DNA of 6,590 nucleotides from a bacterium (GTDB lineage: Bacteria > UBA9089 > CG2-30-40-21 > SBAY01), in assembly GCA_040757115.1 (NCBI GenBank), contig JBFLYA010000210.1:1-6590 (forward strand). The letters are read 5' to 3'. Positions 2,232 through 6,590 of this stretch are shown here, piece after piece. Position 1 is the stretch's first letter, and every line of letters starts with the position of its first letter. The position numbers were made by a program, and so were the translations under genes. The notes below the pieces were generated by a model. It was not told the DNA's origin. It saw only the letters and a list, made by a program, of their open reading frames with translations, and ran no database searches.

Positions 2232-3257
2232 CTACTCTTCCAACCATCTTTTTACTTTATACTCTACCTTGCCAACCCCATGAGCTTCATACCAATGAAC
2301 TTCGGCTTTACGTATTCTACCAGATTCATCTTTAGCATAGGCAATCCCTTTTTTCTTTTTCCAGTTTTTCCCTCCATAAGTCTCCTTTAGCCTCTTTATG
2401 TCTTTAATTCCATGCCCTTTTGCAATAGTTTTTTCAGCAGTTATCTTTCCTATTTCTGTAGTTCCTTTTCCTATAACTTTCGTTCCAATTTTACCTATTA
2501 CTTTACTGCCACCAACAAGAACTGTTTTTATTCCACCAACAACTATCTTTCCAGCTCCCAAGAAATCTGTTGGATCAACTGGATCGCTAATAATTGCCTC
2601 TTCCTCTGGAGTAGGTACTGCACCTAAAATAGGTAATAAAGCATTTGCTATTCTAGAACCAACTCCCGAAATAGCTCCTGTTCTTGCTCCTTCCCAGAAG
2701 TCTCCACCGTACATCGCTGCTTCTATTCCCCCATATATCGCTCCTTCTACCCCCCATTCTAATACATCTCCAAATCCTCCTCCCCAATCTCCAAAATTAA
2801 TAGATTTACCAATTCCCGCACTGAATTGATTAAGCATCCAGCTACTACCAGCACTCATTAAGGCTGCGTCCCAGCCACCGTATTGATATGCCTCATAGAT
2901 ATTATAAAGTGTCCTTGCTGCGGTATAGAATTTCCATGCTGCCCATATAAATTGCCAAAATTCACCATTCGGGTCTATATTTGTGAGTGGATTATTGGCA
3001 CAGTAGATATAGAGATTATCTGCTGGGATTTGAACTGGATCAGGTGTAATGAATCTCCCTAACGCAGGGTCATAGTATCTGGCGCCGAAGTAGAATAGGC
3101 CGCTGTCATCCAACTCCTTGCCGGTAAATGTCGGTCCGCCAACAGGTCCGCCACCTCCAAAGGGATAATAGAAATACTGCTCGACTACCTTGCCATCCTT
3201 ATCCGTAATCACCCTTGCTGAACCTAAGTGGTCATTATGGTAGTAATATGACCCCAA
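2232..3257 (-). CDS. Orphan Rhs tip: C-terminal core fragment, linker and an alternative basic toxin domain
   Basis: The frame opens after a TAG at 3263-3261. The first possible start is TTG at 3257, with no good ribosome site, so this is probably a silent or poorly expressed cassette rather than a full gene. The 341 residues begin abruptly at YYYHNDHLGSARV, inside the Rhs-associated core, and run through GLFYFGARYYDPALGRF to IDPNG (about 97). A linker to about 265 follows that nearly matches the main rhs product. From about 273 the sequence is unique: GHGIKDIKRL, KNWKKKKGIAYAK, KAEVHWYEAHGVGKVEYKVK. I have the impression that this HWYEAHG(V/I)GK ending recurs in other polymorphic toxins, but I cannot name it or its activity. 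The tip is strongly basic (19 K/R, 10 D/E). An acidic small gene follows after 13 nt. Best read as a spare tip that could be joined to the full-length gene by recombination. Confidence 0.85.
   Translation of the reverse strand: MGSYYYHNDHLGSARVITDKDGKVVEQYFYYPFGGGGPVGGPTFTGKELDDSGLFYFGARYYDPALGRFITPDPVQIPADNLYIYCANNPLTNIDPNGEFWQFIWAAWKFYTAARTLYNIYEAYQYGGWDAALMSAGSSWMLNQFSAGIGKSINFGDWGGGFGDVLEWGVEGAIYGGIEAAMYGGDFWEGARTGAISGVGSRIANALLPILGAVPTPEEEAIISDPVDPTDFLGAGKIVVGGIKTVLVGGSKVIGKIGTKVIGKGTTEIGKITAEKTIAKGHGIKDIKRLKETYGGKNWKKKKGIAYAKDESGRIRKAEVHWYEAHGVGKVEYKVKRWLEE
2460..3249 (-). repeat. Long direct repeat, copy 1 (Rhs core end plus linker)
   Basis: This segment matches 5632-6421 at a constant offset of 3172 bases, checked at both ends, so there is no net length change over about 790 bp. 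Most of it is near-identical; a patch at about 2709-2810 is clearly more divergent. Homology stops at the unique toxin tip on one side and at the GGGGTCA junction on the other. It is a natural substrate for homologous recombination between the main and orphan tips. Confidence 0.9.
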
Positions 3258-3280
3258 TTCCTAATTCCCTATTCCTAATT
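3251..3280 (-). repeat. G-rich junction sequence ending in GGGGTCA at the orphan-core breakpoint
   Basis: On the minus strand two GGAATTAGGAAT-like units are followed by GGGGTCA, then directly by the TAT TAC TAC codons of the orphan Rhs core. It therefore marks the exact point where homology with the main rhs gene begins. It lies between the stop of the double-CXXCG gene (3284) and the orphan cassette. Relationship to the other GGGTCA-bearing junctions is inferred from shared sequence and position. Confidence 0.45.
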
Positions 3281-3283
3281 CCT

Positions 3284-4135
3284 TTATTCAACTTCCATCT
3301 CTAAAAAATTTATATTAGTGAAGTGATTTTGAAGAATTATATCCCTAACTTTATCATTAACAATAATATATAAAGTTGTATTAAGAAAAAATATATCTGT
3401 TTCTGGAATAATGTCTTTAGTTAAAATAAGAACTCGTTTTGATTCATCAAATTCTTCTCTTCCACAACTTTTACATTGCTTTGTTACTTCAACCCCTGGT
3501 GGTTTTCCACTATTAGAAATAACAACCATTTCAAATAGAGGACCAAATTTATTAGGAGATTTCTCTTTTTCAACCTCCTTAATAATATCCTCTGGCTCTC
3601 CTGTTTCAGGAATAGGAACCGGTCCAACTGATTCTCTTTTCCCAACCTTCTTTATTATTGCTGGACAAAAAGTAATACCTGAAACATTATTAGATTTAAA
3701 TAAACTTTTTACCTTTTGAGATACTATTATGGAACCCAAGGTGGACCATAAAAAATCACTTTTAGGTCGGGAAGGAAACTCAAGATATACAGGTTGAAAT
3801 TCATCACCAGGCAATAAGAAATCAATATTTTGACCTGATTTATTTAGTTCTTTTAAAAGAGATTGTCGTAATTTTAAATGTTCTTCCGACGAGATAGGCC
3901 ATCGATCTCTAATTTCCTTTAGTTTCTGGAATGAACTAGGACATTCAAAGGGTAATATTCTTGAACCACCCCATGTTTCTCCACAAGTAGAACATTTAAC
4001 CCCAGGCAATCCAAATAAATGTTTTCCACTTCCATTTACAAAAATATCCTTGTAATCACTTTCATAATCAGGAGGTTCTATCTTCCAAAAATTTTTATAC
4101 AAGGAGATATTTTTTACTTGACAAACCCTTTTCAT
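3284..4135 (-). CDS. Double-CXXCG motif protein (SitI-like immunity family)
   Basis: 283 residues from the ATG at 4135, with GGGG upstream at 4145-4142; the in-frame GTG at 4147 is less likely. Two CXXCG motifs are plain: CSTCG (C48, C51) in GLPGVKCSTCGETWGG, and CKSCG (C221, C224). LLPGDEFQP (107-115) also matches my memory of the myxobacterial double-CXXCG paralogous family (Gmx_para_CXXCG, TIGR02264), whose members sit beside SitA-type lipoprotein toxins and act as immunity proteins. The cysteines probably bind zinc. SDFLW...IIVSQKVKSLF (126-146) and DIFFL...IIVNDKVRDII (247-267) look like an internal duplication. A Pro/Glu-rich segment (166-192) separates the two halves. It is third after the rhs gene, whose tip is itself SitA-like, so it may be an extra or historic immunity gene. 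The family is fairly sure; the partner toxin is not. Confidence 0.87.
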   Translation of the reverse strand: MKRVCQVKNISLYKNFWKIEPPDYESDYKDIFVNGSGKHLFGLPGVKCSTCGETWGGSRILPFECPSSFQKLKEIRDRWPISSEEHLKLRQSLLKELNKSGQNIDFLLPGDEFQPVYLEFPSRPKSDFLWSTLGSIIVSQKVKSLFKSNNVSGITFCPAIIKKVGKRESVGPVPIPETGEPEDIIKEVEKEKSPNKFGPLFEMVVISNSGKPPGVEVTKQCKSCGREEFDESKRVLILTKDIIPETDIFFLNTTLYIIVNDKVRDIILQNHFTNINFLEMEVE

Positions 4136-4165
4136 AGCTGACCCCACTATCCTTCCCTAATCTAT
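4136..4165 (-). repeat. G-rich junction sequence ending in GGGGTCA
   Basis: Read on the minus strand this is a purine-rich AGATTAGGGAAGGATAGT-type stretch followed by GGGGTCAG, placed immediately before the ATG of the double-CXXCG gene. It resembles the stretch at 3251-3280 and the GGGTCAGACC-containing copies at 504-548 and 1370-1409. It also supplies the only G-rich ribosome-site-like bases for that gene. Interpretation as a remnant of a dispersed repeat is inference. Confidence 0.4.
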
Positions 4166-4196
4166 TCCCCTGAGAAAAATCTTTAGCGTAGTCGTA

Positions 4197-4688
4197 CTAA
4201 TCGATAAAAAATTCTTCCGGATGCAGTTCGATGTAGCGTTTGAAAAAAGGATAAAGTTGTTCCTCCCCATATAATTGTTCGTTTAGTGGCTCAAAATAAG
4301 CTTCTAATTGATCCTCTGGAATATCCAAAAATTTTTGACGAATATTTCTGTCCAGGGGAACTTTCCCATCTGGGAAAAATTTGAATGCCTGACTCAAAAT
4401 TTCTGCATGCAAAGTCATTCCTAAAAGTCTGAAACCTTTAAGCACTTCTTCAGAATAAATTCCGCTGCTGTTCCAAAAAAATTGTTGCAAACCCCCATTA
4501 TCAACTTCACGCATAAATAAAGTTGTAGTATAAATAGCTCTTTGACCTGGACTACCATACGAAATGTGTTTAAGTTCGTCGATAACAGAACTATTAGGCC
4601 AAATCGGTTCAATCACTTTCCAGAAAAGTTCTTCATCATTCATGCCTTTAACAGTAGATTTTGAAATACGGTAATCAAATCCTTTCAT
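4197..4688 (-). CDS. DUF4375 (DMP19-like) family protein, probable immunity or accessory protein
   Basis: 163 residues from the ATG at 4688, preceded at 8 nt by GGGGGG (4702-4697). An in-frame ATG at 4706 would add six residues but has no comparable site. The family signature is clear at about 48-76: PGQRAIYTTTLFMREV, then DNGGLQQFFWNSSG, followed by helices. This is the conserved core of DUF4375, the family that includes the neisserial DNA-mimic protein DMP19. The protein is acidic (26 D/E against 17 K/R), which fits a nucleic-acid mimic or a binder of a basic toxin. It lies 45 nt after the preceding gene in the same direction. Its role here is inferred: a second immunity protein for the DUF2380-type tip, or an orphan left from a lost toxin. 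Confidence 0.88.
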   Translation of the reverse strand: MKGFDYRISKSTVKGMNDEELFWKVIEPIWPNSSVIDELKHISYGSPGQRAIYTTTLFMREVDNGGLQQFFWNSSGIYSEEVLKGFRLLGMTLHAEILSQAFKFFPDGKVPLDRNIRQKFLDIPEDQLEAYFEPLNEQLYGEEQLYPFFKRYIELHPEEFFID

Positions 4689-4733
4689 AAGAGTTACCCC
4701 CCACATTTCTTCAAAGAATCATTTATTTTACCT

Positions 4734-5357
4734 TCAAATCGGTTTAGCTAAATCTTCTGGCCACCGATACTCATTGGATGGAGTAAATTCTATATTACTT
4801 AATTTATGTTTTTCAACAACCTCTTTTACTCGTTCACTAACTAATCCGTAATTACAATCTTTGAGCCTAAAAAAGTCTGAGCCATTCCATCTCTTCTCAT
4901 CCACAAGAATTCCATATTTAAACTCATTTCTTGACCAGTATATTTTTAGATCACATGCTTTGCACTCCTTTGCTAAATATATTTCACAAATAGGATGTGC
5001 ATATCCATCCTTTACTGCAGTAATCAATTCCCATAACTTTGGAAATGATTCCGGATTGCTCAGTCCTCTTACACTTTTTATGATAACAGGACGCAATTCA
5101 TATCCTGTAAGTCCTGCTTCTTTAAACAATTGTGCTACCCGATCAGTAATTAAACCATCACTATCAAGTGTCCAAGTAAAGTCTCCAATCTTAGGAGAAC
5201 GTAGTTCAATACTTAATATTTCCATTCTCTCTCCCGCCCTTTGATGACCAGGATTTACAGGACAATAAATGGTGTTTTTGTATTTCATTTCTTCTGACCA
5301 TATAGCAACAGGGTATTTTTTATCATCAGTACCAATTGTATAAACATAAAACTTCAT
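4734..5357 (-). CDS. Probable immunity protein for the upstream toxin; CxxC protein related to the double-CXXCG (SitI-like) family
   Basis: 207 residues from the ATG at 5357. GAGG at 5369-5366 precedes this ATG by 8 nt and overlaps the rhs TGA, so I prefer it to the GTG at 5366. The gap after rhs is 10 nt, implying translational coupling, as expected for the cognate immunity gene. One CxxC is intact (C132 and C135, CKACD); the first motif is reduced to a CPVNPGH segment around C32. Two similar segments occur: GDFTWTLDSDGLITDRVAQL near 58-77 and DFFRL...GLVSERVKEVVE near 161-182, the latter followed by NIEF. The downstream 283-residue double-CXXCG protein shows the same two-segment pattern, so I read the two as homologues. 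Cytoplasmic; no signal peptide or membrane segment seen. The immunity role rests on position and family resemblance; the exact family name is less certain. Confidence 0.85.
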   Translation of the reverse strand: MKFYVYTIGTDDKKYPVAIWSEEMKYKNTIYCPVNPGHQRAGERMEILSIELRSPKIGDFTWTLDSDGLITDRVAQLFKEAGLTGYELRPVIIKSVRGLSNPESFPKLWELITAVKDGYAHPICEIYLAKECKACDLKIYWSRNEFKYGILVDEKRWNGSDFFRLKDCNYGLVSERVKEVVEKHKLSNIEFTPSNEYRWPEDLAKPI

Positions 5358-5367
5358 CCTTATCACC

Positions 5368-6590
5368 TCACTTAAGATTAAATTGTAATTTCATTTTCTC
5401 TAACTGTTGCAGTATGTGTTCTCGTGTTGGTTTAATTCCCATTCTCTCATATTTATTAAAAAACTCTCGCCACTGCTTATTCCAATTATTAGGTCCTGTA
5501 TGTAATCCTCCGGGTTTTAATCTATGTTTCTCTTGAGAAATTTTAATAGTATATTTCTCAGGATTTAACCCTGCATCTCTAAACCTCTCAGCAAATTCTT
5601 TAGGAAGCAAATGGTGAGTTTCTAATTTTGTAGCTCCTCTTCCTATAACCTTTGCACCAATTTTGCCTATTGCCTTACCACCACCAACAAGAACTGTTTT
5701 TATTCCACCAACAACTATCTTTCCAGCTCCCAAGAAATCTGTTGGATCAACTGGATCGCTAATAATTGTCTCTTTCTCTGCAGTAGGTACTGCACCTAAA
5801 ATAGGTAATAAAGCATTTGCTATTCCAGAACCAACTCCCGAAATAGCTCCTGTTCTTGCCCCTTCCCAGAAATCTCCACCATACATTAATGAACTTATGC
5901 CACCAGTTATCGCCCCTTCTACTCCTAATTGGAATATATCTCCTAATGGACCTCCCCAATCTCCAAAATCTATCCCTGCACTTATCCCCGCACTGAATTG
6001 ATTAAACATCCAGCTACTACCAGCACTCATTAAAGCTGCATCCCATCCACCGTATTGATATGCCTCATAGACATTATAAAGTGTCTTTGCTGCCGTATAG
6101 AATTTCCATACTGCCCATATAAATTGCCAGAATTCTCCATTCGGGTCTATATTTGTGAGCGGATTATTAGCACAGTAGACATAGAGATTATCTGCTGGGA
6201 TTTGAACTGGATCAGGTGTAATAAATCTACCAAGTGCCGGATCATAGTATCTGGCGCCGAAGTAGAATAAGCCGCTGTCATCCAGCTCCTTACCGGTAAA
6301 TGTCGGTCCACCTACAGGTCCTCCACCACCAAAGGGATAATAGAAATACTGCTCGACTACCTTGCCGTCCTTGTCACTAATTACCCTTGATGAGCCTAAG
6401 TGGTCATTATGGTAGTAATAAATCTTGGGAGCAGAGTTAATTGGTTCTTCCTGTAGCTTTGCTACTAACTGCCCATTACCATAGACATACGAAGTTTTAC
6501 TGGTAATAGTTACCTTCTCTGCCGGTGGTGATTCTAACTTCTGGACTACCCGCACTATTTCGTATGCCTTGCCATTGGCAAGTAATGTCT
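5368..6590 (-). CDS. Rhs/YD-repeat polymorphic toxin, C-terminal part, with DUF2380/SitA-like HNH-type toxin tip (5' end outside window)
   Basis: The frame is open to the window edge, giving 406 visible residues; the GTG at 6555 is an internal valine codon, not a start. Visible order: YD-type tail (YVYGNGQLVAKLQ, about 34-46), Rhs-associated core with YYYHNDHLGSSRV, YYPFGG, GLFYFGARYYDPALGRF and terminal IDPNG (57-151), a glycine-rich linker (152-321), then an 85-residue unique tip (322-406). Rhs cores form a shell that encapsulates and releases the C-terminal toxin; that is family knowledge. The tip has HHLLPKEF, then KHRLKPGGLHTGPNNWNKQW. I recognise this pattern from DUF2380/SitA-type toxins, usually placed with HNH/endonuclease VII-like nucleases. 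Candidate catalytic residues are the HH pair and the later His of KHR. The tip is basic (17 K/R, 10 D/E). Its TGA overlaps the ribosome site of the next gene. Unlike classic enterobacterial Rhs, the variable tip starts about 170 residues after DPNG. The Rhs call is secure; the nuclease activity is inferred. Confidence 0.93.
   Translation of the reverse strand, partial: TLLANGKAYEIVRVVQKLESPPAEKVTITSKTSYVYGNGQLVAKLQEEPINSAPKIYYYHNDHLGSSRVISDKDGKVVEQYFYYPFGGGGPVGGPTFTGKELDDSGLFYFGARYYDPALGRFITPDPVQIPADNLYVYCANNPLTNIDPNGEFWQFIWAVWKFYTAAKTLYNVYEAYQYGGWDAALMSAGSSWMFNQFSAGISAGIDFGDWGGPLGDIFQLGVEGAITGGISSLMYGGDFWEGARTGAISGVGSGIANALLPILGAVPTAEKETIISDPVDPTDFLGAGKIVVGGIKTVLVGGGKAIGKIGAKVIGRGATKLETHHLLPKEFAERFRDAGLNPEKYTIKISQEKHRLKPGGLHTGPNNWNKQWREFFNKYERMGIKPTREHILQQLEKMKLQFNLK
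5632..6421 (-). repeat. Long direct repeat, copy 2 (within the main rhs gene)
   Basis: Partner of 2460-3249 in the same orientation. It encodes the end of the Rhs-associated core (from YYYHNDHLG) and the glycine-rich linker. Recombination between the copies would delete the intervening 3.17 kb, which holds the first tip and its three immunity-type genes, and fuse the main rhs gene to the orphan HWYEAHG tip with the 75-residue gene behind it. Confidence 0.9.

Follow-up and report, generated by a model that had tools for sequence, protein, structure and literature searches.

Organization of the locus

The window, i.e., the whole stretch of DNA analysed, is the entire 6590-bp contig C210 of host genome G000 (4.3 Mb, 462 contigs), and it carries two Rhs tip cassettes, W1 and W2, with all features given here lying on the reverse strand. 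Cassette W1 (5368–6590), called the main gene in the preliminary description, is a frame of 406 aa that is open at the contig end and consists of an upstream segment (6421–6588), an Rhs core running from YYYHND to DPNG (~6136–6420), a linker (~5629–6135) and a putative 86-aa SitA6/DUF2380-like toxin domain (5371–5628; DUF2380/SitA6 match, E 3e-10 / 4e-11). The toxin is adjoined by a probable immunity gene (4734–5366) with weak SitI6/Imm11 similarity, followed by a gene for a DMP19-like protein (4197–4706; PF14300, E 1.3e-19), possibly an extra or orphan immunity gene, and by a paralogue of the first (3284–4147), which by family match encodes a SitI6-like (Gmx_para_CXXCG / Imm11) immunity protein. 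The orphan cassette W2 (2232–3257) starts at YYYHND, with no upstream body and no signal, and comprises a core (~2964–3248), a linker (~2460–2963) and a 75-aa putative toxin domain (~2235–2459) named here after its HWYEAHG motif. Directly downstream lies a gene for a 75-aa protein (1991–2218), a homologue of the partner of stand-alone HWYEAHG genes that is probably the immunity protein cognate to the W2 tip. The arrangement of a variable C-terminal toxin followed by an immunity gene is thus present in the window, with the SitI6/Imm11 and HWYEAHG-partner genes downstream of their respective tips.

The remainder of the window encodes a DUF4279 protein (1452–1853; PF14106, E 2.9e-22), possibly another immunity gene, and two unnamed proteins (980–1366 and 567–902) that are 70% identical tandem duplicates with no family match above cut-off and are possibly a duplicated, leftover immunity pair. 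These are followed by a third, truncated core copy of 48 codons (333–476), which breaks off at FTGKEL, and by inter-cassette repeat DNA (1–330) with an 86-bp direct repeat and 28-bp repeats. The repeat DNA includes a remnant of a cassette upstream segment (87–182), and the same segment precedes cassettes on contigs C70, C112 and C347 of the same genome.

The repeat shared by the two cassettes

The preliminary description had proposed that the two cassettes share a core-plus-linker repeat of about 790 bp at a constant offset of 3172 with no net indel, and this was confirmed by ungapped comparison of 2460–3250 (copy 2) with 5632–6422 (copy 1), where 791 bp at offset 3172 align without indel at 89.1% identity (86 differences) before running into unrelated toxins. 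Outside the repeat the identity falls to chance, on the toxin side below ~2445 and on the core side above 3250. The longest identical run is 88 bp (2509–2596), and the differences are clustered, with 32 of them within one 100-bp stretch, an extreme reached in 0 of 5000 shuffles. In copy 2, difference clusters are found at 2701–2820 and near-identity at 2509–2687; at the level of codons, identity is 97% in the 31 codons from DFWEGA and 71% just upstream. Both cores match the Rhs core model TIGR03696 above cut-off (E 2.7e-20 for W1 and 2.2e-20 for W2) and end in DPVQ-(18)-DPNG, the boundary classically seen in Rhs proteins (PMC2935791), and in both copies the homology goes on for ~170 residues further, again as first described. 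This linker contains four moderately hydrophobic, glycine-rich stretches, which are compatible with a translocation role, and it may act as an entry or translocation domain.

A single crossover between the copies had been expected to delete exactly one toxin/immunity block. Only one toxin would indeed be lost, but the block contains three downstream genes (4734–5366, 4197–4706 and 3284–4147), and the assembled sequence examined did not contain a junction of the kind expected from a W1-to-W2 deletion. Searching for relatives of the linker revealed none in GTDB r220 contigs, and among 40 relatives in the phylum a full-length match was found solely in G001, a sister species within the same genus, with two weaker partial matches elsewhere.

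A body gene and an array of tip cassettes

Core-like matches number 22 in G000, yet a complete N-terminal body of this type occurs only once, on C70, where a gene of 2917 aa combines Rhs repeats with a Colicin_E5 tip. This ColE5-like body gene is followed by several cassettes on the same contig, and these share their upstream segment (..SLANGKAYEIVRVVQKLESPPAEKV..) with W1. The N-terminal export/delivery part with its Rhs repeats is present on C70 and absent in W2, and the W1 frame is cut by the contig end. One and the same linker precedes three unrelated toxins, namely in W1, in W2 and in the cassette at C70:11192–12577. In addition, the repeat DNA at the left end of the window is found ahead of cassettes on C70, C112 and C347, indicating that the array extends beyond this contig. 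Taken together, the cut W1 frame, the already tipped C70 gene, the shared upstream segment and the left-end repeats are most simply explained if W1 and W2 are two members of an array, so that the window most likely holds at least two reserve cassettes belonging to a single array, and W1 would be one of these reserves and not another main gene.

The preliminary assignment of 5368–6590 as the main gene could accordingly not be upheld, as its frame is open at the contig end and G000 has a single body of this type, which already carries a tip. Likewise, the simple two-state switch between main and orphan gene gives way to an array of many cassettes whose full-length gene lies on a different contig. 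Both G000 and G001 are fragmented, metagenome-style assemblies, which limits what can be said of array order, copy number and the W1 body; C210 has no 127-mer in common with any other G000 contig that was tested. Contig C112 (L024) can be placed upstream of C70 by a 127-bp end overlap, and its reverse strand contains pieces of another Rhs family, distinct from the first (FEDILEDTIDSSSP type), such that two cassette arrays appear to lie side by side at C112/C70.

Evidence for tip exchange from a sister species

In G001, contig C370 contains a long frame that matches the C70 body at 84% identity over its first 1.5 kb but has a tip of the ColE3 type ('Cytotoxic', PF09000). The same type of tip is an orphan in G000, at C70:11192–12577, while the ColE5-like tip of C70 was absent from G001–G003 when these were searched. 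The end of the G001 body contig C390 (L082:1–127) is identical over 127 bp to the starts of two tip contigs, C370 (L053:1–127) and C312 (L055:4805–4931). Past these 127 bp, C370 and C312 drop to 83% identity and terminate in different toxins. The assembly thus forks here, which may reflect two copies of the gene, the presence of two strains, or switching.

Comparison of orthologous cassettes revealed mosaics in both directions. The cassettes on C112 (G000) and C396 (G001) are 55–78% identical across most of the upstream segment, mostly 95–100% in core and linker (with dips to 85–90%), 45–75% over ~500 bp covering the toxin end and the 5' part of the immunity gene, and again 96–100% over the 1.6 kb that follow (with one 60-bp step at 93%). 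Conversely, C347 (G000) and C312 (G001) are 53–75% identical in core and linker and mostly 85–100% from the toxin onwards, so that near-identical toxins follow linkers of 53–70% identity. In line with this, the tree of upstream segments groups by species (G001 clade, bootstrap 100; the one exception is gC317b of G001), whereas in the core tree C112 and C396 are sisters (bootstrap 100). These mosaic identities and incongruent segment trees call for recombination with breakpoints inside the linker. Hence the original proposals that tips are exchanged through the shared core and linker, and that the exchange points lie past DPxG, found support in the divergence patterns, in the linker shared by three toxins and in a sister species whose body gene carries a tip that is an orphan in G000. 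Nevertheless, C396 and C370 are identical over 130 bp where the upstream segment meets the core, and the single C112/C396 breakpoint at this border may be a chimera introduced by the assembler at k=127; at the breakpoints of the toxin block, the contigs under comparison had no stretch in common of this kind.

The SitA6-type tip and its candidate immunity genes

The tip of W1 is a SitA6-type toxin domain, judged by its sequence match, and not a SitA6 protein, as the whole-protein model TIGR02269 scores 42.9 bits against a cut-off of 85.75 and matches at positions 115–202 only. A search of PDB sequences with this tip returned nothing significant. Similarly, the protein encoded at 3284–4147 reaches 37.5 against the SitI6 whole-protein model TIGR02264 (cut-off 100.15, not reached), yet it passes the Pfam cut-off of PF09535 (44.6 versus 25). 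The paralogues 4734–5366 and 3284–4147 of the SitI6/Imm11 group are both candidates for the cognate immunity gene of the W1 toxin; the better SitI6 match, 3284–4147, is the one farther from the SitA6-type toxin. The toxin domain and the double-CXXCG immunity family are both shared with the myxobacterial SitA6/SitI6 system, but here the toxin is carried on an Rhs protein and the W1 frame has no lipoprotein escort domain.

The HWYEAHG tip and its partner gene

The tip of W2 (2235–2459) has no match in Pfam or NCBIfam, and searching PDB sequences gave nothing significant. Four relatives in the phylum, one of them in G000, are stand-alone genes of about 73–78 aa, each followed by a gene resembling 1991–2218, and at least 544 related stretches were detected in a scan of the genomes of 84,980 named species, along with one distant match in a plasmid collection. 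Of these 544 or more, 80 loci from many phyla were examined, and the partner adjoins the HWYEAHG gene in 78. The two are small, adjacent, co-directional genes that are conserved together, in the manner of type II toxin-antitoxin pairs; net charge, computed for the window pair, is +9 (basic) for the tip and −12 (acidic) for the partner. For the AlphaFold2 fold of the tip (mean pLDDT 88), all Foldseek matches had an E of 0.49 or more and all VIA-align Z values were under 5; with no telling match, no function was deduced from the fold.

Polymorphic toxins are known to recruit stand-alone toxin/immunity cassettes (PMC3482391), and the best reading of the HWYEAHG genes is that a widespread stand-alone toxin/antitoxin-like pair was recruited as an Rhs tip with its immunity gene, their activities being presumed. 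The order of toxin then immunity gene and the recruitment of a stand-alone pair are as in the cassettes of Zhang et al. 2012 (PMC3482391), but the pair found here differs in having no Pfam or NCBIfam family model, and it is a candidate for a new toxin-antitoxin-like family without a name in either database.

A model for tip exchange

Considering the array, the mosaics and the switched tips, it is probable that the locus belongs to a tip-cassette array in which recombination in core and linker swaps toxin/immunity blocks among cassettes and onto the body gene. Each cassette would consist of part of the upstream segment, an Rhs core, a glycine-rich linker, a toxin and one or more immunity genes, with the full-length gene on C70 supplying the N-terminal body and the silent tips serving as its reserve. 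Homologous recombination of the RecA type between copies of core and linker would then move the toxin/immunity blocks, with RecA dependence presumed, and the tips themselves are predicted to be active antibacterial toxins.

The strongest competing explanation, to which somewhat less than even weight is given, sees the tips as leftovers of earlier lateral acquisitions, pushed aside by incoming DNA (C-terminal displacement) and since then switched rarely or never inside the genome. This would fit the model of Jackson et al. (PMC2935791), the truncated remnants (333–476, C112 and, in G001, C317/C312) and the near-identical segments between species, which suggest lateral import. Yet the toxin frames are intact, and continuing recombination is needed to account for upstream segments that are homogenised within species next to tips that are orthologous across species. 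A bolder version of exchange, in which the shared post-DPxG translocation linker is a regular recombination platform, blocks, a captured stand-alone gene pair among them, are switched frequently in populations and the G001 fork represents one body with two tips in living cells, can be held only tentatively. The original view, that W1 is an expressed main gene with W2 as its single orphan and that a crossover replacing the SitA6-type with the HWYEAHG-type tip deletes 3172 bp, is unlikely; the repeat geometry fits, W2 lacks body and start signals like the Salmonella orphan, and the open contig end leaves room for a W1 body, but the sole body of this type in the assembly is already tipped, the W1 upstream segment also occurs on orphan cassettes and further cassette DNA lies beyond the left end. 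Finally, it is very improbable that the likeness of the linkers reflects shared ancestry and functional constraint with no exchange, as a constrained translocation domain with recurring hydrophobic glycine-rich segments would not account for the abrupt identity changes inside linkers in both directions, the long synonymous-site identity or the incongruent segment trees.

Relation to known systems

The favoured model of an exchanging cassette array resembles several described systems. In Salmonella Typhimurium LT2, recombination between rhs-main and rhs-orphan over 522 bp of 95% identity has been demonstrated (Koskiniemi et al. 2014, PMC3967940). There, a full gene shares its repeat with a downstream orphan that, like W2, lacks start and export signals, and crossing over is expected to join the orphan tip to the body with loss of the resident immunity gene. 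In contrast to LT2, the repeat here, between W2 and the open-ended W1, is 791 bp at 89%, there are many cassettes, the full-length gene is on another contig, the exchange points also lie inside the linker and the W1–W2 junction is a prediction. The identity of W1 and W2 (89%) is below that of the Salmonella pair (95%), and lower recombination rates are therefore expected.

In Enterobacteria, Rhs C-terminal displacement gives rise to arrays in which dissociated core fragments bearing different tips follow one another (Jackson et al. 2009, PMC2935791). The present cassettes can be likened to these fragments, which are nearly identical to the resident core, the core ending in DPxG-(18)-DPxG, but there the tips differ right after the core, whereas here several tips share ~170 more residues. 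A further parallel is contact-dependent inhibition (CDI), where the entry domain of CdiA-CT precedes the toxin and is common to different toxins (reviewed in PMC9086364). In both cases, a conserved module on the delivered side stands before the toxin and is shared by different toxins; unlike in CDI, an Rhs core takes the place of CdiA and the entry role of the linker is a presumed one. What is new here is a multi-cassette example from an uncultured lineage, together with cross-species evidence for exchange points in the post-DPxG linker. Main/orphan tip exchange is thereby extended to an uncultured lineage, with exchange points beside the toxin and not at the core border, such that a delivery linker could stay in place while only toxin and immunity gene change. 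Moreover, mosaics between sister species offer a sequence-based test of how often tips are switched.

Core remnants and repeat DNA

Besides the window, core remnants occur on C112 of G000 and on C317/C312 of G001. The four truncated remnants are located at 333–476 of the window, L024:1620–1727 (C112), L054:3073–3378 and L055:232–528 (C312 of G001), and three of the four stop near the same codons (FTGK). Several of them adjoin REP-like repeats or palindromes (GTAGGGTCGCATCTTGAATTG; GGTCAGACCTTGAATGTAGAA). The repeat ATTCAAGATGCGACCCTACAC, found in the window at 1–330 and at G000:C347:2525–2999, occurs at 8 places in the genome when at most one mismatch is allowed, 7 of which are in these two contigs.
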